From Chloroflexota bacterium (GTDB lineage Bacteria; Chloroflexota; Anaerolineae; Anaerolineales; Villigracilaceae), in NCBI GenBank assembly GCA_016235425.1, contig JACRLC010000082.1, positions 1-64,000 of the forward strand: a stretch of 64,000 nt of DNA, read 5' to 3'. Within the stretch, counting starts at the first letter, position 1. The number at the start of each line of letters is the position of its first letter. Shown piece after piece: positions 3,928 to 62,720 of the stretch. The position numbers and the translations under genes are program-made. The notes under the pieces are model-generated. The model saw only the letters and a program-made list of their open reading frames with translations. It was not told where the DNA came from and searched no databases.

Positions 3928-4173
3928 TCATTCGCCAGTATACGCGTCATGAAGTTCCTGGAGGAAATGTGCTCTTTCTTCCAACTCGGCAAGTTTGCCG
4001 GAAGCATAGGTTGACGCTTCCTTCATGAGTTGTTTGACTTCTTCCCCCGGTAGTTTCTTCAAATCTTCCAGCGTGTATCCTTTGCCTTTTAGATATGCCT
4101 CAATGAGCGTCTTCTCCAAAGCGGCATGGATATCTTCCGCAATCGGCTGACCGTTATTTTTATTCGTTGACAT
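3928..4173 (-). CDS. Small hypothetical protein (81 aa)
   Basis: Unrecognised 81-residue acidic protein, predicted helical, with a central segment KGYTLEDLKKLPGEEVKQL and a C-terminal AELEERAHFLQELH that could form a short coiled coil. It has no signal peptide or membrane segment. ATG 4173 has a strong ribosome binding site (GGAGG, 5-nt gap) lying immediately after the subunit D stop codon, so it belongs to the tail of the V-ATPase operon. The position suggests, but does not prove, a link to the ATPase. Confidence 0.65.
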   Translation of the reverse strand: MSTNKNNGQPIAEDIHAALEKTLIEAYLKGKGYTLEDLKKLPGEEVKQLMKEASTYASGKLAELEERAHFLQELHDAYTGE

Positions 4174-4183
4174 GAGCCACCTC

Positions 4184-4831
4184 CTATTTGGGCCTGTCCA
4201 TCTCTCGTTTCCGTTCCAGGGAGCGCTTCACCAATTTTAGTCGAAAATGATCGGCGCGTTCGCGTTCATCCAAAGCCATCTGAATGAAATCCCGTTCCGC
4301 TTCGAGGCGCGGGATCAAAAAATGATCGAGCGCGTTCAACCGCCTCGACGTACGCTGGATTTCATCGCCCAGGCGTGTGAGGCGCAGTTCAGTATCAGCC
4401 AGTTGGATGATGGCTTCGACCTCTCTTTCAAAAGCGGAGGCGGTTTCATCAATGGCGATCGAAGTGCCAACGATGGAATAACCTCTTCCCAGCAATGAAC
4501 GGGCGGCGCTCTTCTGTTCGATATGCGGGACTCTCACCCCCATCACGCTTCTGGTCGTGACCTCGAGGCTGAATCCCCCACGAGAGGCCAGCGCGGCCGA
4601 GCGAACAGACTCCGCGCCTGCCATTGCCTCCGTCCGCGCAAGAGTCTGGCTGGCATTGGCAGCGGAGACCTGAAGCGCGTCCGAGCGTTCCAACGCGGTA
4701 TCCGCGGTTCGCATGAACTCCTTCATCAAAGCCGTGCGCTTTTGTTCCAGCAAATCACGACCCTGACTCGCCAGAGCGATTTGCGCCTTGCGGGCTAAAA
4801 GTTCCATGCGGGTGACTGAAACGTTGCTCAT
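4184..4831 (-). CDS. ntpD: V-type ATP synthase subunit D
   Basis: Central-stalk subunit that couples rotation of the c-ring to the A3B3 head. The 215-residue product has the family N-terminus (VSVTRMELLARKAQIALASQ), a long helical coiled coil and a C-terminal helix rich in Glu/Arg, as expected for a stalk. I place the start at ATG 4831 because family homology begins there. An in-frame ATG at 4870 would add 13 residues encoded entirely by a palindromic repeat. The ribosome binding site at 4831 is weak (CAGGT), perhaps because the repeat at 4843-4898 displaced the original one. Last of the nine ATPase genes in transcription order. Confidence 0.92.
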   Translation of the reverse strand: MSNVSVTRMELLARKAQIALASQGRDLLEQKRTALMKEFMRTADTALERSDALQVSAANASQTLARTEAMAGAESVRSAALASRGGFSLEVTTRSVMGVRVPHIEQKSAARSLLGRGYSIVGTSIAIDETASAFEREVEAIIQLADTELRLTRLGDEIQRTSRRLNALDHFLIPRLEAERDFIQMALDERERADHFRLKLVKRSLERKREMDRPK

Positions 4832-4842
4832 ATCTTTTACCT

Positions 4843-4898
4843 GTACCGCGACATTTATGCCGCTGGCCATTGCAAGGGCGACATGAATGTCGCATTAC
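4843..4898. repeat. Twin-palindrome repeat, copy 1 (degenerate), B/D junction
   Basis: Two 21-nt arms (4843-4863 and 4878-4898) are imperfect inverted copies, each itself nearly palindromic around ACATTTATG / ACATGAATG. The same element occurs in perfect form at 8752-8806. Here it overlaps the stop codon of subunit B (TAA at 4895-4897) and lies directly in front of subunit D. Confidence 0.8.
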
Positions 4899-6328
4899 AC
4901 TTTGCGCCTATGGTATTGCTCAATAAACTCCTGCGGAATCCGTTTGAGCAATTCGGCGGGCATGGGAGATAGCAACTCCCAGGCGTGGTCGAGCGTTTCG
5001 ACGATTTCGCGGTTGACCATCCCCTGTCCAACAAAAGTCTCTTCAAAGCGTTTGGCAAAATCCAGCACGCGGCGATCCTCCGCAGACAACGCCGCTTCAC
5101 CGATGATCGCCACCAGGCGGCGCAGGTCGCGGCCTTCTGCGTACAACGCATAGAGTTGGTCAGCAACCGAGCGGTGATCGGTGCGCGTCTTTCCCTGGCC
5201 GATCCCCTCGTTCATCAGCCGCGAGAGAGACGGCAAAACGTCAATCGGCGGGTAAATGCCCTTGCGATGCAGATCCCGGCTCAACACGATCTGGCCTTCG
5301 GTGATGTAGCCGGTCAGGTCTGGGATGGGATGCGTGATGTCGTCGTCGGGCATGGTGAGGATCACCAGTTGCGTCACCGAGCCAGGATTACCGCGGATGC
5401 GCCCGGAGCGCTCGTACAAACTTGCCAGGTCCGAATACATATACCCTGGATAGCCGCGCCTGCCCGGCACTTCCTCGCTGGCCGCGGCGATCTCGCGCAG
5501 AGCTTCGCAGTAATTGGTCATATCGGTCAGGATGACCAGCACGTGACGATGATGCGTGAATGCCAGATATTCCGCCGCGGTCAAAGCCGCGCGCGGGGTG
5601 AGCAGGCGTTCGATGGATGGGTCGTCGGCGCGGTTGATGAACAACACGGTGCGGTCCATCGCGTCACTGGCGCGGAACTGATCCATGAAGAAGGATGTCT
5701 CACGCTGGGTAATCCCCATCGCGGCGAAGACCACTGCGAAGGGTTCGCTGCCTTTGCCTTCTGCCTTTTCTGTGTTATCGCCGCCAACCACGCGCGCTTG
5801 AGACGCAATTTGCGCGGCGAGTTCATTTGCAGGCAGGCCCGCGCCGGAAAAGATGGGAAGTTTCTGCCCGCGCGTCAGTGTATTCAATCCGTCAATCGCT
5901 GAGACGCCCGTCTGGATAAATTCGCTGGGATGTGTCCGCATCGAAGGGTTGATGGGCAGGCCGTTGATGTCGAGCGATCTCTCGGGGATGATGGGCGGGC
6001 CGCCGTCAATGGGCTGGCCGGACCCATTCAGGACGCGTCCCAGCATCGAAAGCGAAACGCCAAGGCGGGCTACATCACCAGTGAAGCGAACGCGCGTCGT
6101 ATCGAGGTCCAGTCCCGAAGTCCCGATAAAGATGCGGACCATGCAGCGCTGCCGATCCACCTCCATGACCTGTCCCAGCCGCACTTCACCATCGGGGCCA
6201 ATGACTTCCACAATCTCGTTGTACGCGACATCCGCAGTACGTTCGACGAAGAGCAACGGCCCTCTGATCTGGGAGAGTGTCCGATACTCGGTGGTCAACA
6301 GGCGGGGGAGAGGCATCGTCTTGAGCAT
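4895..6328 (-). CDS. ntpB: V-type ATP synthase subunit B
   Basis: Non-catalytic nucleotide-binding subunit of the A3B3 head. The 477-residue length is normal for the family. It carries the beta-barrel N-terminus ([17 protein letters not shown]), a degenerate P-loop region ([16 protein letters not shown]) without the Walker lysine, and the conserved [16 protein letters not shown] and [21 protein letters not shown] segments. ATG 6328 is chosen because it lies 1 nt past the subunit A stop codon with GGGAG upstream; an in-frame codon at 6352 lies inside subunit A. The TAA stop is inside a palindromic repeat, so the last residues may have been shaped by that insertion. Confidence 0.95.
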
Positions 6329-6329
6329 C

Positions 6330-8117
6330 TCAGGCAACTCCCAAATCAGCAAAACTGAATTGCACGCGATCCATGATGGCCTTGATTTCTTTCTCGGCTG
6401 TTTCCATTTGGAATTCTTTCATGCGCGCGATGTCAGCAACAACCGATAATGCAGTCACGCGTTCCAGGGAAATTTTGGCATCCAGCGCGGCCTGTGTGCG
6501 ATGATAAAAATCCATGACCGCCTTGAGCATCCAGTAGGCCTTGTGGATCGAACAGTAACGATCCACATCGCGATACGCTGATTGCTGGAGGAAATCCTCG
6601 CGCAACATGCGGGCGATGGCTAACACGGCTCGTTCGCGTTCGGCCAGGGCGTCGGGGCCGACCAATTGAACGATTTCCAGCAGTTCGACTTCGCGTTGAA
6701 GCAGTGCCATGGCTTCACTGGATAACTCATCCCAATCGGTCGCCACTTCGCTCTCGAACCAATCGCTGAAATCGTAGAGCGAATAACTGCTCGTCCAGTT
6801 GATGGCGGGAAAGTGACGTCGGCGTGATAAATCGTAATCCAATGCCCAAAACGTGCTCGCCACGCGCATCGAGTTCTGGGTCACGGGTTCCGAAAAATCG
6901 CCGCCAGGAGGCGACACCGCCCCAACTACCGAGACCGAACCCATGCGTCCCTGCGTATCCGAAGCGCCGTGATTCCCCAAACAGATGATCCTGCCAGAGC
7001 GCTCGTAAAATTCCGCAAGGCGCGCCGCCAGATACGCTGGGTAGCCCTCTTCGCCTGGCATTTCCTCCAGCCGCCCTGAAATCTCGCGCAAGGCCTCGCC
7101 CCAGCGCGACGTGGAATCAGCCAGCATGAGCACGTCATAGCCCATGTCGCGGTAATACTCCGCAATGGTGATGCCCGTATAAATGCTGGCTTCCCGCGCC
7201 GCCACAGGCATGTTCGACGTGTTGGCGATCAGCACGGTGCGTTCCATCAACGGCGCGCCCGTACGCGGATCTTCCAGTTTTGGGAACTCCTCCAAAACCT
7301 CGGTCATCTCATTACCGCGCTCGCCGCATCCCACATAGACCACCACATCCGCATCTGCCCAGCGCGCGAGACTGTGTTCAGTCACAGTTTTTCCCGTCCC
7401 AAATCCGCCGGGGATGATCGCCGAACCTCCTTTGGCGACCGGGAAAAACGCGTCGATGATGCGCGTGCCTGTGAGCAGTGGTTCGCGCGGCGCGAGACGA
7501 GTCTGACATGGACGCGGCTGACGGACAGGCCAACGCTGGACAAGTGAAATCTCCCGATTGTTGACACCCGCCTCATCCCCCGACCTGATAACTGCCACCG
7601 TTTCATTGACAGTAAACTCCCCTGAGCGGATACTGACCACCCGTCCGCGTTGGTGAGGAGGAACCATGATGCGATGCTCAATTGTTTGCGACTCGGGAAC
7701 CACACCAAGAATATCGCCCGCGCCGACAACATCGCCAACAGAGACATGGGAAGTAAACTGCCAGCGTTTATCTTCAGGCAACGGCGACGCCTGCACGCCG
7801 CGCTGGATGAACTCACCACCCGTCTCAGCCAGGATTTCCAGTGGTCTCTGCAGGCCATCGTAAACCTGTCCCAGCAGGCCCGGCCCCAACCTGACAACCA
7901 GAGGAAGCCCTGTACTCTGAACTGGTTCTCCCACGCGAATGCCAGACGTATCTTCGTAGACCTGGATCGTAGTCAACCCCTCCGAAAGACGAATGACTTC
8001 TCCGATGAGTCCCAGTTCACCGACACGTACAACGTCATACAGACGGATATTTTCCAACCCCACCGCCCGCACAACAGGGCCTGCAATACGGATTACTTTG
8101 CCAATGTTATTGTTCAC
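6330..8117 (-). CDS. ntpA: V-type ATP synthase subunit A (catalytic)
   Basis: Catalytic ATP-binding subunit of the rotary head. At 595 residues it is full length. It shows the Walker A motif GGFGTGKT (Lys at 243), the [11 protein letters not shown] segment, the Walker B-like [20 protein letters not shown] and the family insertion domain after residue 110. The start is a GTG at 8117; no ATG gives a family-like N-terminus, and AAGGAAAG lies about 10 nt upstream. Unlike the other junctions, the gap to the upstream gene (subunit F) is 255 bp and is filled by a dispersed repeat, so A, B and D may depend on read-through. Confidence 0.96.
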
Positions 8118-8146
8118 TCGTCACTACTTTCCTTGCATTCAGTCAT

Positions 8147-8362
8147 TGCCCCGCCAAATTGCGGCGGGATTCCGAGGAGGGTTCGCGCTGAGCGGAGTGA
8201 GACAGCGCTCTCCCGTCGAACGCAGTCGAAGCGTCTCCCCGACGAAGCAATCCCCACGTCGAGGAGGAGATTGCTTCGCCGCCATCCTTCGACTGCGCTG
8301 CGCTCCGCTCACCTGTGCCTGCGCCCCAGGTGCAGGCAGGACGGCGGCTCGCAATAACGGTC
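8147..8362. repeat. Dispersed GC-rich repeat between subunits F and A
   Basis: The 255-bp F/A gap is almost filled by a composite repeat containing the words GCTGAGCGGAGTGAG, GCAGTCGAAGCG, CCTTCGACTGCG and CAGGTGCAGGCAGGA. Related words occur at 32165-32325 (intergenic), 48741-48768 (in front of clpC) and 53235-53490 (inside a coding region). No gene is present. Confidence 0.7.
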
Positions 8363-8372
8363 AAAACTCACA

Positions 8373-8723
8373 TTACTCCATGTCACTTTCTTCCTCACCT
8401 TTGAAAGTAATATGGAAACCAATCGCCCGTCGAATTAGCGCGGCGATGCGGTGTCTTTGGGATGCTTCCGGGCCTAGCGGCTCGCCGCCTGGAATCGCGA
8501 GATATGGCAGATGCTCGGAAGAGGCAAGGCGTTTCAAGAAGGCCGTGTCCATGTGGGCCAGCAAGCCGTCATCAATTGCCAGCAGGCCCACCTCGCCGGC
8601 AGTCATCCATTTCTCGATCAGCTCCTGGGCGCTTTCCACATCCTCAACGCCATGAGCATCCACCCCGGCCAATTGAAAACCAGGGACGAGGGCAGGTCGA
8701 GTGAGGACGAATAATTGACTCAC
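8373..8723 (-). CDS. V-type ATP synthase subunit F
   Basis: Small central-stalk subunit that regulates coupling. The 116-residue product fits the family (about 100-110 residues): an alpha/beta fold with VLTRPALVPGFQLAGVD at the start, EVGLLAIDDGLL and LPYLAIPGGEPLG. I chose the GTG at 8723 because it has GGAGG with a 7-nt gap and matches the family N-terminus. A longer in-frame start at 8876 would translate through the palindromic repeat at 8752-8806 and add 51 foreign residues. Gene order C-F-A is the usual bacterial one. Confidence 0.9.
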   Translation of the reverse strand: MSQLFVLTRPALVPGFQLAGVDAHGVEDVESAQELIEKWMTAGEVGLLAIDDGLLAHMDTAFLKRLASSEHLPYLAIPGGEPLGPEASQRHRIAALIRRAIGFHITFKGEEESDME

Positions 8724-8751
8724 AGTGAGACCTCCAACCGTAACGAGGGGC

Positions 8752-8806
8752 GTACCGCGACATTTATGTCGCCTTGCACTGCCGAGCGACATAAATGTCG
8801 CGGTAC
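8752..8806. repeat. Twin-palindrome repeat, copy 2 (perfect), C/F junction
   Basis: Perfect 21-bp inverted arms at 8752-8772 and 8786-8806 with a 13-nt spacer. Each arm contains a near-palindrome (GCGACATTTATGTCGC / GCGACATAAATGTCGC), so RNA from either strand can fold into one long stem or two short ones. A degenerate copy lies at 4843-4898. Both sit between ATPase genes. Confidence 0.9.
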
Positions 8807-8844
8807 AAATCTGCGCAAACGCTGCAATCGTTGAAGAGCAATAT

Positions 8845-9918
8845 TCATACCATCTCCAACTCCGCTCGAATGGCATCTGGTTTTAACCCAAGATTGATTC
8901 CCTGCGTGATCCAGCGAATGTTGCCGATTTCATTGATCTTCAACGCCACATAACCAAGAACCACGCCAATGCCCAGCGGGTCTTTTGCAATTTGTTCCGC
9001 CATCCATTCCAACCGGTAATGCTTTAGGTGTCTCTCGATATCGCTTAAGCGATTCGAATGAGTGTACGCTTCCAATCCAGCGCGCAATGCAGGTTCGAGG
9101 AACGTTCCTGAAAGAGTTTCTATAGCAGGGGCTACCATGTCCTGCCTGCAAGCGTTTGCAAGCAATTCAAATGGGATGTGCCCTGACCCGATAAATAGAT
9201 GCTCGATCTCGTCAGTGCCAAGCCGGTCACGGAGCAGGTCGCGCTCGTGCGGGAATTGGGCGAAACGCAGGACTGTCAACACATTGACCAGATCAGCCTC
9301 AAGTGCCAGGGCGTGAGACAGTGGGTCCACCATGCCTGTCTCGCTTCGCAAAGTTTGACGGGCCTCCTCGTAATACCACTGATCGAGGGCCAGTTCCATT
9401 TCGAATGTCTCTGCGCCTGGGGCCTCCGCCCGCACATTGAGAAGCGGCCAGGCGAACGAAAGGCCCATGCTTGCCAGCAGATCTATCGCCTCGCGCGGGT
9501 TGTTCAACTGGGTTAATTCGCGCAATGTGCTCATGCTCAATTCACCAATCGGCAGTAAGACAGTGAGAATATCGCCGGCGGGTACATTCTTCGAGATGCC
9601 GCGCAGGATCGCCTTGAGGTTGTGGATGTCATAAGTACGCAGGACGATGGCGGTCATCTTTCCAGCGCTTTCCATGTAAAAGCCGCGTATCTTCCCAACT
9701 GTGTTAACGAGATCAGTTCTCAGGGCCTCGTCAATGCACTGCATACCGGTGGCACGCGTCAGGGCGGTCTCGACCGATTTCTGGTAAACGGTTTTGGTCA
9801 AGGCCGCGATCAATCCCTGCAGACTGCCAGTCTCTGCCAGCGTTTCCAGTTCATGGCTGGAAAGCAGTCTTGATTTCATCACGTGCAAGCGCGCATTGCC
9901 ATAATCGTAATCAGGCAT
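8845..9918 (-). CDS. ntpC: V-type ATP synthase subunit C
   Basis: Funnel-shaped subunit (V0 d/AC39 family) joining the c-ring to the central stalk. The 357-residue length is normal. The N-terminus DYDYGNARLHVMKSRLL and the repeated helical units with conserved LRTYDIHNLKAILRG are family features. ATG 9918 has GAGGAA upstream. The spacing to subunit E is unusual: an 88-bp palindromic element (9939-10026) fills the junction and runs into the subunit E coding end. Confidence 0.92.
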   Translation of the reverse strand: MPDYDYGNARLHVMKSRLLSSHELETLAETGSLQGLIAALTKTVYQKSVETALTRATGMQCIDEALRTDLVNTVGKIRGFYMESAGKMTAIVLRTYDIHNLKAILRGISKNVPAGDILTVLLPIGELSMSTLRELTQLNNPREAIDLLASMGLSFAWPLLNVRAEAPGAETFEMELALDQWYYEEARQTLRSETGMVDPLSHALALEADLVNVLTVLRFAQFPHERDLLRDRLGTDEIEHLFIGSGHIPFELLANACRQDMVAPAIETLSGTFLEPALRAGLEAYTHSNRLSDIERHLKHYRLEWMAEQIAKDPLGIGVVLGYVALKINEIGNIRWITQGINLGLKPDAIRAELEMV

Positions 9919-9938
9919 GGAGTGTTTCCTCGGGCTGT

Positions 9939-10026
9939 GTGCGTCGCACCATGTTTAGCGGGAATGTTTCAAGCGGGAACCAGTCCCATTTCGTGGGACT
10001 CATCTCAGGGGGCAGGTGCGACGCAC
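9939..10026. repeat. 88-bp inverted-repeat element at the E/C junction
   Basis: Ends are perfect 12-bp inverted repeats (GTGCGTCGCACC at 9939-9950, GGTGCGACGCAC at 10015-10026), with an inner hairpin AGTCCCAT.TCGTGGGACT. The same termini and almost the same size (89 bp) are found at 14260-14348 inside the MFS gene. The subunit E stop codon (10005-10007) lies within the element, so the last codons of subunit E come from it. Confidence 0.85.
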
Positions 10027-10637
10027 TCACGGGTGTGTTTCTCCTCAGATTGCTCTTCCTCAAACAATGCGGCCAGGTGGCGGCGTAAAAACGCGGCCGC
10101 CCGCTCCAATCGGGACTCGAAGGTATTGATGACAACCACCCGGCCATCTTCACTTTTGGCGATCAGCCCGCCCCAGCAGTTCAGTTCGTAACTGACGGGC
10201 AGATCCAGATTCAAATCGTCGAGGATGTTTTTGAGCAATGTCCTGTCGCGCGGGTCGGCCAGGAGTTGAGCCTTGCCACCCGATGCGAGTTCGGTCAACG
10301 CTTCCTCGGTCAGCGTGCGCAACACTGCCGGGTAGGATAAATCAGAGCGAAGGGATGCGAGGCGTTCGCGCGCGCGGGTGATGGCAGTATCCACGAGGTC
10401 TTCCCTCACGTCGCCAACGATGCGCAAAGACTCCAGACGCGCTCGATGGAAAATCCGCGCGCGTTCCGCGATTGCTGGAGTGCTTGCAATGGTGCGGGCA
10501 TCTTCTTCGATCTGACGCGCTTCCATCCGCGCATGCGCCAGGATCTCGCTCACCTGAGATTGCATATTCTTCTCAATCTCTTGAACCTGCGCATCTCCTG
10601 AAGCGCGGATCTTCTCGAGGATGGCCTGCAAACTCAT
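10005..10637 (-). CDS. ntpE: V-type ATP synthase subunit E
   Basis: Peripheral-stalk subunit. The 210-residue product has a long N-terminal helix (ILEKIRASGDAQVQEIEKN...), heptad-like and charged, then the globular C-terminal domain with WGGLIAKSEDGRVVVINTFESRL, all typical. ATG 10637 is preferred over an in-frame codon at 10652 because it directly follows the subunit K stop. The C-terminal tail (TRECVAPAP) is encoded by a palindromic element, so the ancestral stop was probably nearby and the tail is acquired. Confidence 0.92.
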   Translation of the reverse strand: MSLQAILEKIRASGDAQVQEIEKNMQSQVSEILAHARMEARQIEEDARTIASTPAIAERARIFHRARLESLRIVGDVREDLVDTAITRARERLASLRSDLSYPAVLRTLTEEALTELASGGKAQLLADPRDRTLLKNILDDLNLDLPVSYELNCWGGLIAKSEDGRVVVINTFESRLERAAAFLRRHLAALFEEEQSEEKHTRECVAPAP

Positions 10638-10638
10638 C

Positions 10639-10881
10639 TTATTCGCCGCCAAGCAGTAACAGCATGGCCGCCACCGCGAAGCCCAGAATGACCATCGTTT
10701 CAGGGATGGCGATGAGCAGGATGATCATTCCCAGGGCCTCTGGTTTCTCGGCGATCACGCCAGCCCCGGCTGATCCGATCCGTCCTTGGGCCAGCCCCGT
10801 GCCGATGGCAGCCAGGCCAATCGCCAGTCCCGCGCCGATTGCAGTCAGTCCGGCTCCAATTGCAGTCAGGTCGAGCTCCAT
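10639..10881 (-). CDS. ntpK: V-type ATP synthase subunit K (c-ring)
   Basis: Membrane rotor subunit. The 80-residue product is a single two-helix hairpin, half the size of the four-helix form. Helix 1 is glycine-patterned (AIGAGLTAIGAGLAIGLAA), the loop reads AEKPEA, and helix 2 holds the ion-binding Glu in AIPETMVILG. A Gln just after the glycine-rich part of helix 1 (GLAQGRIG) aligns with the Gln that binds sodium in some c-subunits, so Na+ coupling is possible but unproven. ATG 10881 has an ideal ribosome binding site (AGGAGGTAAAAATG); a longer start at 10902 lacks support. Confidence 0.93.
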   Translation of the reverse strand: MELDLTAIGAGLTAIGAGLAIGLAAIGTGLAQGRIGSAGAGVIAEKPEALGMIILLIAIPETMVILGFAVAAMLLLLGGE

Positions 10882-10898
10882 TTTTACCTCCTTGTGAA

Positions 10899-12785
10899 TC
10901 ACAGGCGGCTTCTAAACGGCTCATAGGGCCTTCCGCCGCCTTCGTAAAATTTACGGAAGAACTCCACATAATGCAGACGTAAACTGTGGATCGTAGGGCT
11001 GAACATGCCCAGGACGAGATTCAGGGCATGGATCAAAATGGCGAGAATGGCGCCCACGATGACATTGCCCGCGATCCCAGCCACTTCGTTTGCCACTTTC
11101 GCAAGATAGACCGAGGCCAGTCCGATGGCCGCAATACGCAGATAAGAAAGGACATTACCGATCAGGGTGATGAATTCTATGGGCCCCATGATGACTCCCA
11201 GACAGCCCAGCGATGCGCTCAATAGCACGATGCCGATGATCACGGTGGCAATGGCAACATTCATGAATCCCTGAGGCAGGAAATCTGTCAACACGCCGAC
11301 CATGAAAAAGAGTCCGATCAAGCCCACAAGCATTCCGCCGCGCTCCAAGAGTTGGCTGCGGCTTCTGTCTTTAATAGCTTCCCACACGCCGAGGATCAAA
11401 CCCAACGTAATGTGAACAGCGCCAACCGCCACGCTCATGAGGAGCAGTCCCAACACGTGCTCTGAACTGGTGCGGTCAAACCATAGCGCGTGCAATCCAA
11501 AATATTCGCCCAGCGTGCCGAATGCCTCGCCGTATAAAAAGCCAAACAGGATTGACCAACCCGCTCCCATCGCCAGCACGATGAGAATGTCGCGGAGTAC
11601 TCCTGCTTTGAATCGGCGCAGAAATCCCAGGCTGAGCGCCAGAACCAGAATGCCATATCCCACGTCGCCAAGGATCATGCCGAAGAAGATGGGCAGGAAG
11701 AACGCCATCATGCGAGTCGGGTCAATGTGTCCGTAGCGCGGCAAGGCAAGCAGTTTGACCAGGCTTTCAAAGGGTTTAGCCGGTCTCGGATTTTGCAGGA
11801 CGACCGGCGCTCGTTTTTTCATTTCAGGCGTCATCTTCAATTTTTGGATGAGCACAGCATTGCCGACGTTTTCCCGAAGAGCCGTTTCAACTTTTTCGAT
11901 CTCTTTGACAGGAACCCAACCCGCCAGCACAAAGGTCAGGTCCGTTTCCCCAAACCGCGGCAATACGCGCGATGCTTCGATCTCATCCTGCAAGACAGCC
12001 CGCCAGACAGCCAGCTTTTCACACCATTGCATTGACAGTTCGCCCAGTTTGCGATTGATCTCTTTGATCTGTTCGGGGACGGATGCCATGCGGCGATACA
12101 GGGCCGTCAGGACAACATCGGGGGAGCCTTCTCCCAATTCGGCAGGCAGGCGCAGACGCGAGATGTCCTCGCGGCCCAGCAGGGCTTCAATCTCATTTGT
12201 GTATCTTTCAGGGAAGACGATCAGCATGGCGCGCGTGGAAACATCCACGTCGCTGGCTACCACCTCGGCAAGCCCATCGGTCAGATCGAACACACGCTTG
12301 CCCACGGTATCCAGAATGTCCATGTGCTCCCGGTTGACCAGGACGCCGACCGATCTATTCCCCGGTTCGCGTACAGAGATGGGAATGATCGGTAGCAGCT
12401 TGCGCAGAGTGGCTTCGTAACGCGGCAGGGAGGTCAGCTCGGATTCGAGCCGCTCGCGTTGGGAAGTGAGCGACTTTACCTCGGGCATAAGTTCTTCCAC
12501 GCCCGCGCGGGCCTCAATCAGGTAATTCCCCGAAGGAGAAATTGCGGGTTTCTGATGAACACCTCCCAGGGCATCCAGCAATCCTCCAAGGCGCGCGACA
12601 AGGAAACTGAGTTCCTCCTGTTGCCGAAGCGTGTCCCGATCCAGCGAGAGCGGGCGCGCCGAGACTTCGGGCAGGTCGGTCAGTTCTTCAATGTGCATAC
12701 ATCCCACCCGTCGTAATGTGTGGATCACAGCCTGCAGATTGACTTTAAGTCCCACGATCTCAACAGGGATCATTTCAAGATTCAT
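10899..12785 (-). CDS. ntpI: V-type ATP synthase subunit I
   Basis: Stator subunit (116-kDa/a-subunit family) that forms the ion half-channels. The 628 residues divide into a cytoplasmic part (about 1-340, ending near PFESLVKLLALPRYGHIDPT) and seven or eight membrane helices (about 350-600). The conserved late segment IEFITLIGNVLSYLRIAAIGLA contains the essential Arg, and a family tail FFRKFYEGGGRPYEPF ends the protein. ATG 12785 overlaps the upstream subunit gene by 11 bp, so translation is probably coupled. Confidence 0.95.
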   Translation of the reverse strand: MNLEMIPVEIVGLKVNLQAVIHTLRRVGCMHIEELTDLPEVSARPLSLDRDTLRQQEELSFLVARLGGLLDALGGVHQKPAISPSGNYLIEARAGVEELMPEVKSLTSQRERLESELTSLPRYEATLRKLLPIIPISVREPGNRSVGVLVNREHMDILDTVGKRVFDLTDGLAEVVASDVDVSTRAMLIVFPERYTNEIEALLGREDISRLRLPAELGEGSPDVVLTALYRRMASVPEQIKEINRKLGELSMQWCEKLAVWRAVLQDEIEASRVLPRFGETDLTFVLAGWVPVKEIEKVETALRENVGNAVLIQKLKMTPEMKKRAPVVLQNPRPAKPFESLVKLLALPRYGHIDPTRMMAFFLPIFFGMILGDVGYGILVLALSLGFLRRFKAGVLRDILIVLAMGAGWSILFGFLYGEAFGTLGEYFGLHALWFDRTSSEHVLGLLLMSVAVGAVHITLGLILGVWEAIKDRSRSQLLERGGMLVGLIGLFFMVGVLTDFLPQGFMNVAIATVIIGIVLLSASLGCLGVIMGPIEFITLIGNVLSYLRIAAIGLASVYLAKVANEVAGIAGNVIVGAILAILIHALNLVLGMFSPTIHSLRLHYVEFFRKFYEGGGRPYEPFRSRL

Positions 12786-13137
12786 TTGATCTCCCGCCTT
12801 CCTTCAGGCCAAGGACGATGCTTATGGCCTCCTGAATTGCCGCCTCCATGCGCGCCTGTCCCTTTCGGCTCAGGTCGGCAGCCTGATTGTGCGCACGCAC
12901 AAGAATGGTGCGCGCCTCCTCCTCGGCTTTGGAAACGATCCCTTTGCAATGAATCTGGCCTTCGCGGTTTCCAGCCTCCTGAGCCTGCTTTTTGAAAAGG
13001 GTGGACTGCGCGCGCGCATCGATCACGGTACGCTCAGATGCTTCGCGTACTGTTACGATTTTGCGTGTTATTTCTGCTTCCGCCAGGCGGATTTGGTCCA
13101 GTGGTGACAGCCCGGCAACGGATATTTGATCGGCCAT
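12775..13137 (-). CDS. V-type ATP synthase subunit H/G (peripheral stalk)
   Basis: First gene of the ATPase operon. The 120-residue product is almost entirely a charged helix (residues about 15-105, rich in Glu/Arg/Ala), like the coiled-coil G/H subunit that pairs with subunit E in the peripheral stalk. The assignment rests on shape and on position before subunit I, since sequence is poorly conserved in this family. ATG 13137 has GGAGGAA about 8 nt upstream. An in-frame codon at 13197 gives an unlikely N-terminus. Confidence 0.82.
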   Translation of the reverse strand: MADQISVAGLSPLDQIRLAEAEITRKIVTVREASERTVIDARAQSTLFKKQAQEAGNREGQIHCKGIVSKAEEEARTILVRAHNQAADLSRKGQARMEAAIQEAISIVLGLKEGGRSNES

Positions 13138-13331
13138 AAAGCGATTCCTCCGCCCGAACAGGCATGTTGGAATAATCAGCCAACCGTTTCGCTGCATCGG
13201 GCATCTGGGTTATTTTGGTGGTTTTTCCCGCTTGAGGATTGTGATGCGGAATACCTCTCAGCTTTCAGGGCGGCTTTTGAAGTAGATGAAAGAGGCTAAC
13301 ACTCACTTGCGGCAGGCATCCTTCTAATATC

Positions 13332-13360
13332 AGTTTAGCACAGGCACGGCTGCGATTCAA
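13332..13360 (-). promoter_or_regulatory. Candidate promoter of the V-ATPase operon
   Basis: On the minus strand: TTGAAT (13355-13360), a 17-nt spacer, then an extended -10 TGC-TAAACT (TAAACT at 13332-13337). Predicted start near 13325 leaves a leader of about 190 nt before subunit H/G. No other good match lies between the repeat element and the gene. Confidence 0.4.
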
Positions 13361-13460
13361 TAAAGTACGCTAACACAATTTGGTTGCCCAGCGGCCCTAG
13401 AGTCCAGCAAGGATTTGCCCCGTGGGGACATATCAGGCCTACGAGCATAAATAATCATAT

Positions 13461-13597
13461 GGGTGTGTTTCATTTCAGTTGAAACCGTCCCGCCCCGTCC
13501 TGGCCCGGACGGGACAGGGAAGGTTGGCTAAAACGACCGAAATTTCCCCGCAAAACCTTCGGGACGTTCTTTCTTTCAACCCATTTGAAACGCACCC
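13461..13597. mobile_element. 137-bp MITE-like element with 9-bp target duplication
   Basis: The element has imperfect inverted ends of about 24 bp (starting GGGTGTGTTTCA and ending TTTGAAACGCACCC). It is flanked immediately on both sides by the perfect 9-bp direct repeat TAATCATAT (13452-13460 and 13598-13606). It encodes nothing and sits upstream of the ATPase promoter in the 516-bp gap between the ATPase operon and the MFS gene. The parent transposon is not in this window. Confidence 0.8.
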
Positions 13598-13653
13598 TAA
13601 TCATATACCATTGTCCGTAACCAAAAAATTAATCGGATGAAACACGGAAAGGA

Positions 13654-14970
13654 TTATGCGTACTCACTCACCGGTGTTTGCTTCCGTAATCTGAACAGAC
13701 TGACCAGCAACCCGAGCGCTAACGTCGCCGCGCCGCTGTAGAATGGATATTCGATGTTGATGTCGTAGATGTAGCCTCCCCAAAGCGGACCAACCACGCG
13801 GCCCAGGCTTGTCATCGCGCTGTTCAATCCCATGACCGTGCCCTGATGCTCGCCCGCGAAAGCCGAGATGTATGAGTTCAGCGCGGGACCAATCAATGCA
13901 AGTGTAAGAATGAAAAATCCCAGGGCAAGAAGAGTGGTTATGTAATCAAAAGCCAAAGCCACCAGGACAAAACCAATCGCTCCTCCAAACAGGCCAAGAC
14001 GGATCAGAGTTAACTCACCAAGTTTTTTTGATAATGGACCAGTTAATCCACCCTGAACCAAGATAAGCACGATTCCCATCACCATCCAAATTGCACCAAC
14101 CTGTTTGGTGTTGAAGGCGAACTTATCCACAACGTACAGGCCAATCATGCCTTGAAAGTTGGTCATGCCGAAACTCATGATGAATATCAGCAGGAGCAGG
14201 ATCCCCGCGGGGCTGAGGAGGACACGCAGGTAGATGTCGCGGGTACGCGGACGCGGAGGGTGCGTCGCACCTGACTTGGCAGAATCAGCCTTATCGTTTG
14301 GATTCTCCCGATTAGGCGGAGCCGATTCATCTGTCAGGTGCGACGCACTCGTGTTAAACGGAACCAACTCACCCGTCGAGGATGAGGCGGGTTTTGATTC
14401 AGGCAAAAGAAAAATAACCAAAAGTAGCGCAAGGAAAGCAAGCCCTGATCCAACAAAAAATGGCAGGGACAGCGAATCCGTGGAAAGCAATCCGCCCATG
14501 AGTGGACCGAGGATCACTCCCACACCGACCATTGCGCCGAGTTGTCCCATGCCTTTGCTTTTTTCTTTTTGCGGGGTGTTATCGCCAATGTATGCCATCG
14601 CCGTGGGCATCGTTGCCGAGGAGAGAATGCCAGAGAGCGAACGGGCGATGAAGAGCATGACGAAAGTGTTGGCGAGACCGAACATGAAGAGCGTGACGGC
14701 ATAGCCAAGCACGCCGATGGCGAGGATGGGCTTGCGCCCGTAGCGGTCGGACAGGATGCCCCAGATGGGCGCGCAGACGAGTTGCATGAGCGAGTAGGTG
14801 GACATGAGCCAGCCGAGTTCGGTGCCGCCCGCGCCGAGTTTCTCGATGTAGAATGGCATGATGGGCATGACCATCCCGTAGCCCAACATCACCACGAGCA
14901 GGGTGAACGAGAGGATGAAAAGATTCTTGCGGCTGGCTGTGTTCATGGTGCGACCAATTTTTGTTGCCAT
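13654..14970 (-). CDS. MFS drug/metabolite exporter, TetA-like
   Basis: A 12-helix major facilitator of the DHA1/TetA type, likely exporting a small compound with proton antiport. The 438-residue product has motif A between helices 2 and 3 (GILSDRYGRKP), a glycine/proline-rich helix 5 (LGAMVGVGVILGPLMGG) and symmetric halves. The central cytoplasmic loop is extended by about 30 residues encoded by an 89-bp palindromic element (14260-14348), inserted in frame without breaking the protein. ATG 14970 is chosen for fit; no start has a strong ribosome binding site, and ATG 14946 is possible. It is the last gene of the run headed by the TetR gene. Confidence 0.85.
   Translation of the reverse strand: MATKIGRTMNTASRKNLFILSFTLLVVMLGYGMVMPIMPFYIEKLGAGGTELGWLMSTYSLMQLVCAPIWGILSDRYGRKPILAIGVLGYAVTLFMFGLANTFVMLFIARSLSGILSSATMPTAMAYIGDNTPQKEKSKGMGQLGAMVGVGVILGPLMGGLLSTDSLSLPFFVGSGLAFLALLLVIFLLPESKPASSSTGELVPFNTSASHLTDESAPPNRENPNDKADSAKSGATHPPRPRTRDIYLRVLLSPAGILLLLIFIMSFGMTNFQGMIGLYVVDKFAFNTKQVGAIWMVMGIVLILVQGGLTGPLSKKLGELTLIRLGLFGGAIGFVLVALAFDYITTLLALGFFILTLALIGPALNSYISAFAGEHQGTVMGLNSAMTSLGRVVGPLWGGYIYDINIEYPFYSGAATLALGLLVSLFRLRKQTPVSEYA
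14260..14348. repeat. 89-bp inverted-repeat element inside the MFS coding region
   Basis: Perfect 16-bp inverted ends (GTGCGTCGCACCTGAC at 14260-14275 and its complement at 14333-14348). Termini and size match the element at 9939-10026, but the interior differs. Its length is not a multiple of 3, yet the reading frame is kept, so the net insertion must include a few extra bases. Confidence 0.85.
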
Positions 14971-62335: not shown

Positions 62336-62714
62336 GGGGATGACAGGCTTCGACGGGAGAGGCTGGTCCCGGAATGCGAGCCGAGCGCGCGCCGAACTCG
62401 TAAAATCAGCGCAAACCTTAAGTGCCAACCGCACTTCCTACGCTGCTATGCCCCTCGCTGCATAAGCGAAACATAACAGTACAGTCTCCTCGATGAGGCT
62501 GCGTCCACCGGCCCCGTTCTCCACCCGGTGACGGACTGGGCGAAACAATGATGGAGTGCCGCGCATGACTCTGCTAAATGCGCCTAAGACCAGCAGATGG
62601 CTGCTGGGTTACCTGCCCGCCGAGATCCCAGTGGTGACAAACTTCGGCAGGCTACGCTCGTAGATTTCCGAGGGTCGATTCTTTCGGACGCGGGTTCGAT
62701 TCCCGCCATCTCCA
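62336..62714 (+). ncRNA. ssrA: Transfer-messenger RNA (tmRNA)
   Basis: Rescues stalled ribosomes. The 5' end GGGGATGACAGGCTTCGACG and the 3' end with a T-arm (GGTTCGATTCC) and CATCTCC pair to form the tRNA-like acceptor stem (7 bp, one G-U). The tag reading frame runs 62424-62462 (GCC start, ANRTSYAAMPLAA) with a TAA stop at 62463, ending in the degradation signal LAA. The genome does not encode CCA (ACAC follows), so it must be added. Length is about 379 nt. It is flanked by a promoter and a strong hairpin downstream. Confidence 0.96.
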
Positions 62715-62720
62715 CACTTG

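Follow-up and report, generated by a model that had tools for sequence, protein, structure and literature searches.

The question raised by the first 64,000 nucleotides of contig JACRLC010000082.1 (the window), from a Chloroflexota bacterium of the family Villigracilaceae (assembly GCA_016235425.1), is why an operon encoding a V/A-type ATPase should carry palindromes at its gene junctions. The operon consists of nine genes on the minus strand (4184-13137) in the order H-I-K-E-C-F-A-B-D, and its junction gaps are −11 nt at H/I, 17 at I/K, 1 at K/E, 86 at E/C, 121 at C/F, 255 at F/A, −8 at A/B and 63 at B/D. A first-pass annotation proposed that the palindromes set RNA stability and subunit stoichiometry or, alternatively, are simply tolerated. 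The latter fits both the ordinary frequency of repeats at junctions and the absence of the elements, or the presence of different spacers, in relatives. We propose that the palindromes are most probably dispersed mobile repeats that are tolerated at junctions where the genes can do without coupling, with no need for a selected, operon-specific function.

The presence of palindromes at B/D, F/A, C/F and E/C and upstream of H is confirmed by their coordinates (unstranded), predicted folds and repeat matches. The B/D element (4843-4893) is an inverted pair of hairpins with arms at 4848-4863 and 4878-4893 and a GTAC tag. The C/F element (8752-8806) is a similar pair with 21-nt perfect inverted arms and a 13-nt linker, each arm containing one hairpin (8757-8772 and 8786-8801). 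The E/C element (9939-10026) is an 88-bp repeat with the ends GTGCGTCGCAC and GTGCGACGCAC, and the upstream element (13453-13602) is a 150-nt inverted repeat with GGGTGYGTTTC ends that encloses a further hairpin, termed family 5 (13484-13570). Compared with dinucleotide shuffles, RNA folding gave z scores of −6.7 for C/F, −5.1 for the upstream element, −4.3 for E/C and −3.0 for B/D. The weakest fold was that of the F/A spacer (8142-8344; z −2.3 for a folded length of 150 nt; 9 of 200 shuffles did equally well), which is not one single element, as had been supposed, being a mosaic of five repeat clusters (1, 12, 13, 27 and 48). Likewise, the five elements exist but are not all unrelated, as those at B/D and C/F belong to one family (family 0). 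The E/C element does sit at its junction; it is not confined to it, as it overlaps the 3′ end of gene E, supplying the last codons and the stop codon (10005-10007) of this subunit. No element lies at the tight junctions A/B, K/E and H/I, as originally reported.

All of these sequences are dispersed. The E/C, C/F, F/A and B/D spacers each match other loci in a sample of the bacterium's own (host) genome comprising 0.79 of its 5.0 Mb, and the upstream element also matches elsewhere in that genome; a reversed decoy, used to control spacer matching, gave no match for any of 22 spacers tried. When repeats in the sample were clustered, C/F and B/D fell into family 0, which has 22 members; family 5, with 10, contains the upstream hairpin, the E/C element belongs to a cluster of two, and the F/A spacer is spread over its five clusters. 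Altogether, short dispersed repeats form 95 clusters in the sample, and the large clusters are mostly intergenic and, by eye, palindromic.

The number of repeats in the operon is not exceptional. Genes in the sample were identified with a simple caller (78.6% coding), hence some were missed, and the background rate was derived from set B, 20 contig starts totalling 0.32 Mb, which may be repeat-rich since assemblies break at repeats. Dispersed repeats occur at 64 of the 195 co-directional junctions in set B, or 64 of the 135 with a gap of at least 30 nt, and at 78/216 junctions in set A, which was picked at family-0 matches. Against the background rate, the four repeat-bearing junctions among the eight of the operon give P=0.25; the automatic score was three junctions (P=0.52), because the gene caller extended D across the B/D element. 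Denser runs exist elsewhere in the sample (repeats at 6/6 and 6/7 junctions), one 23-gene run has none, and a 13-gene run that includes a second V-ATPase operon of the host genome has a repeat at 1 of its 12 junctions. This second V-ATPase (G000:C76:11911-15029) is diverged, its subunit A being 57% identical. Repeat density in the operon is ordinary for the host genome, of which short dispersed palindromic repeats are a general feature. The first-pass annotation had itself reasoned that an equal density at random intergenic sites in relatives, with no effect on transcripts, would count against its reading; at the DNA level, a similar density was found at ordinary junctions, together with relatives that lack the elements or carry unrelated spacers.

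Turnover of the repeats is evident from 15 operons of this type, some of them incomplete (relatives are denoted by G numbers; the operon of G006 is in two pieces), in which the starts of the relatives' genes were placed by homology. A junction was considered open at 45 nt or more; the value of −226 nt for B/D in G375 was excluded. None of the eight junctions of G006 exceeds 16 nt, and four of them (E/C, C/F, F/A and B/D) overlap. Tight junctions of this kind prevail in the relatives and look ancestral. The C/F junction is a 4-nt ATGA overlap in 10 of the 15 operons, 1 nt in two and 44 nt in one; it extends to 121 nt only in the host genome and G291, each with a family-0 pair. E/C is open in 4/15 operons (the host genome, G291, G304 and G063), F/A in 2/15, B/D in 6/13 and I/K in 8/15, although not in the host genome. 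When the 22 spacers of at least 45 nt were compared all-against-all (E 0.001), the only match between genomes at the same junction was at C/F, between the host genome and G291. The remaining matches between genomes comprise family-0 pairs and one 21-nt stretch joining F/A of G291 with E/C of G304; the B/D spacer of G291 also holds a family-0 pair, with no direct match to the host B/D spacer at E 0.001. Thirteen of the 22 spacers match the host genome sample; one of these, the I/K spacer of G375, matches operon coding DNA only. Beyond the operon, 15 loci of G291 that carry family 0 were set against the host genome sample, and two orthologous sites were aligned, the first containing family 0 in G291 and family 3 in the host genome, the second a pair in the host genome and a single hairpin in G291. 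One repeat family takes the place of another at a given junction, within and outside the operon.

Repetitive extragenic palindromes (REPs) are a known kind of element. GTAG-type REPs, the paired forms termed REPINs or bacterial interspersed mosaic elements (BIMEs), and REPtrons with a REP-associated tyrosine transposase (RAYT, or TnpA-REP) are described in the available portions of PMC3733652 and PMC6006769. Family 0 consists of a GTA(A/G/C) tag and the hairpin GCGACATnnATGTCGC. Its hairpins often form inverted pairs with a linker of 4-22 nt, and the host genome contains 63 arms; the 22 members clustered in the sample include 15 intergenic, 6 mixed and 1 genic. Exact pairs were found in 19 of 120 genomes of the taxonomic family, including the host genome, and in 2 of 301 genomes of a phylum sample, namely the host genome and one from the same family. 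As far as the portions of these two articles extend, family 0 shares with REPINs and REPtrons a tagged hairpin, inverted pairs, high copy number and a mostly intergenic location, as well as matching hairpins beside a RAYT gene in relatives, a patchy spread and some genomes that lack a RAYT of their own. A RAYT gene lies between family-0 hairpins in G313 and G280, and has them on one side in G265. Among 18 related RAYT loci, like hairpins were seen by eye on both sides in 15 and on one side in 3, the hairpin sequences varying between loci, and the host genome encodes a single member of this RAYT clade, accompanied by a different hairpin, in addition to four other Y1 genes. The family-5 hairpin is located on both sides of another RAYT in one relative, G304, the protein scoring 80 bits against a cut-off of 80. 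Family 0, linked to a RAYT in relatives, and the upstream family, linked to a RAYT in G304, thus appear REP/REPIN-like.

Within 0.44 Mb of relatives' DNA, 34 of the 60 largest repeat clusters were matched (decoy, 0), the counts for families 0, 22 and 34 being inflated as the set was gathered partly through family 0 and Y1 genes; at 80 distant loci (1.37 Mb), 2/60 clusters were matched versus 1/60 for the reversed decoy. No match to the C/F element or to part of the F/A spacer (8178-8345) was found among 72,556 plasmid records.

The E/C element belongs to a different type of family, whose members are 86-91 bp in length with the self-palindromic ends GTGCGTCGCAC and GTGCGACGCAC and a variable core. 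There are 15 exact copies in the host genome, where most copies observed are intergenic, and 30 of 120 genomes of the taxonomic family contain members; G024 contains 102 exact copies of the GTGCGTCGCAC element, again with fixed length, self-palindromic ends and a variable core. Like miniature inverted-repeat transposable elements (MITEs), the E/C and upstream elements are short, non-coding, bounded by inverted ends and present in many copies. In contrast to MITEs, no target-site duplication was evident in the 25 E/C-family copies examined, no parent transposon was found and the ends are themselves palindromes; on the duplication test the family is not a classical MITE. No mobiliser was found for either the E/C or the F/A elements. 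A further parallel, in architecture, is with the Rickettsia palindromic elements (RPEs) located in frame within genes, as described in the portion of PMC3733652 available, since one E/C-family copy lies within a transporter gene and another ends subunit E; most copies of the E/C family observed here, however, are intergenic. The former copy (89 bp, 14260-14348) is in frame within a Major Facilitator gene (13654-14970; Pfam MFS_1) and falls in a stretch of the protein rich in polar residues.

These observations are consistent with a mechanism in which dispersed mobile repeats of several families would insert at gene junctions, entering and turning over at such sites across the host genome and its relatives. 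Within the operon the repeats would persist because little is lost when the start-stop overlaps preceding C, F, A and D are separated, whereas coupling would be kept at A/B and, for this lineage, also at K/E and H/I. Movement would likely occur through single-strand transposition by a RAYT, an enzyme of the HUH type, the insertions would be close to neutral, and the host genome may have lost its family-0 RAYT.

Several findings weigh against this explanation. The GTAG tag of family 0 is degenerate (among 174 contexts, with each hairpin read on both strands, GTAA occurs 32 times, GTAG 24 and GTAC 21), and the family differs in this respect from the REPs of the cited portions, having A, G or C after GTA and not strictly GTAG. 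The family-0 RAYT is a single locus common to three relatives, G313, G280 and G265, where the same neighbouring gene points to one ancestral locus; in two of them, G280 and G265, the RAYT gene is divided between two frames. Against REP_Tyr_transpos the G313 protein scores 73.3 bits, below the NCBIfam cut-off of 80. None of the five Y1 genes examined in the host genome is flanked by family 0, and no HUH open reading frame was detected in the 2.5-2.8 kb around the family-0 pairs of G016 and G355 or the hairpin array of G420. Nine of the 22 operon spacers have no match in the host genome sample and partners may be weak (one weak partner elsewhere in G291 for its I/K spacer, two in G304 for that of G304), so some of the spacers cannot be counted as proven repeats. 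The junction openings are unevenly spread, indicating that tolerance is not uniform. Finally, the arms of the C/F element differ between the host genome and G291 at 1 of 32 positions, compared with 17 of 76 in the flanks (P=0.02), which could reflect hairpin constraint or homogenisation by a mobiliser.

A more tentative proposal, which we regard as possible but doubtful, is that repeat insertion constitutes a natural mutational scan of coupling, in which the junctions preceding C, F, A and D are repeatedly opened by unrelated spacers but A/B, K/E and H/I are not, and that a REPIN core, such as the one at C/F, can also turn round at its site from one lineage to another. With respect to the first part, A/B, K/E and H/I are open in 0/15, 0/15 and 0/11 operons, respectively, lending some support to the earlier remark on tight junctions. 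The E/C, C/F, F/A and B/D junctions were opened independently perhaps 9-12 times, a count made by judgement, and the associated P values, which are post hoc, are 0.001-0.006, or 0.01-0.06 without the host genome's own openings. In distant V-ATPases from a scan of named genomes, which served as a yardstick for gaps, A/B is at least 45 nt in 5/73 and K/E in 14/30, making a general rule of coupling less convincing for K/E. A requirement for coupling at A/B is plausible from these comparisons; any such requirement at K/E would be lineage-specific. With respect to the second part, the 45-nt C/F core of the host genome (8757-8801) and that of G291 (C6:44894-44938) match at 42 positions when one is inverted and at 35 in the forward orientation, while the 13-nt linker is identical at 11/13 positions inverted and 4/13 forward. 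The core of the C/F hairpin pair has flipped in place in one lineage, an unexpected detail. A 42-codon open frame on the minus strand (8720-8848) runs through the C/F insert, its start overlapping the stop of C and its stop overlapping the start of F, and is open in G291 too. Such a translational relay was rejected as a general rule, as it is seen at 5/111 repeat-bearing junctions (4.9 expected) and 5/121 repeat-free junctions (5.5 expected); C/F and E/C of the operon are among the five repeat-bearing cases.

Returning to the view that the repeats are mobile and tolerated, its strongest competitor holds that the hairpins act on the mRNA, as exonuclease blocks or cleavage sites, such that the single-copy stalk subunits C, F and D and the multi-copy subunits A, B and K are made in different amounts. 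The strong predicted RNA hairpins, the retention of the C/F arms relative to their flanks and the restriction of openings to certain junctions are consistent with such a role, as are nine compensated pairs among 22 variant family-0 arms. Against this, broken pairs (19) and wobble pairs (10) exceed the compensated ones (some of the variants are probably not true arms), the elements are absent or different in relatives, the repeat rate equals that of other junctions, and the run containing the second V-ATPase operon has a repeat at just 1/12 junctions. An mRNA role is thus unlikely, and a selected function in RNA stability or stoichiometry finds no support in these sequence comparisons. That the palindromes are DNA sites, for protein binding, supercoiling or chromosome structure, is less likely still: they are near-perfect palindromes, and roles of this kind are proposed for REPs in the available part of PMC3733652, but several unrelated families occupy such junctions. 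Transcription termination or attenuation within the operon is scarcely credible despite the GC-rich stems between genes, as the 4100-13700 region contains 7 terminator-like sites against 9.5 expected in shuffles, with none inside an element. At none of the elements was an intrinsic terminator, a GC-rich hairpin followed by a T run, recognized.

The genes that flank these elements, all on the minus strand, were assigned as follows. Subunits A (6330-8117; NF003220), B (4895-6337; NF003235) and D (4184-4831; TIGR00309) pass the curated NCBIfam cut-offs; the start of D, and the TTG start of B that overlaps A, were set by homology. The other six match NCBIfam subunit families at E 1.3e-5 or better, below the cut-offs, and their identities are also backed by gene order and homology to relatives: F, with a GTG start (8373-8723; NF002577, E 3.2e-6), C (8845-9918; TIGR02923, E 1.7e-46), E (10005-10637; NF002629, E 2.8e-24), K (10639-10881; NF004913, E 9e-15), I (10899-12785; NF004430, E 2.7e-105) and H (12775-13137; TIGR02926, E 1.3e-5), homology to relatives being of particular note for F and H. 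A tmRNA gene at 62336-62717 (RF00023) was the sole match to Rfam-type RNA families in the window.

A 2025 survey of REPs includes three Chloroflexota among the genomes scanned, according to the part of PMC12306157 available. No description of these repeat families or of this operon was found at the level of titles and abstracts in a partial literature on Chloroflexi REPs, RAYTs and REPINs, and REPs in V-type ATPases. The analysis also yields RAYTs of this lineage matched with their hairpin families. As a third of the co-directional junctions in the genome sample carry dispersed repeats, a regulatory reading of intergenic hairpins calls for a background rate first. Comparing relatives makes it possible to ask where in an operon coupling has to be kept and, if repeat insertion does act as a mutational scan, tolerance of insertions would report which subunit pairs must be made together.

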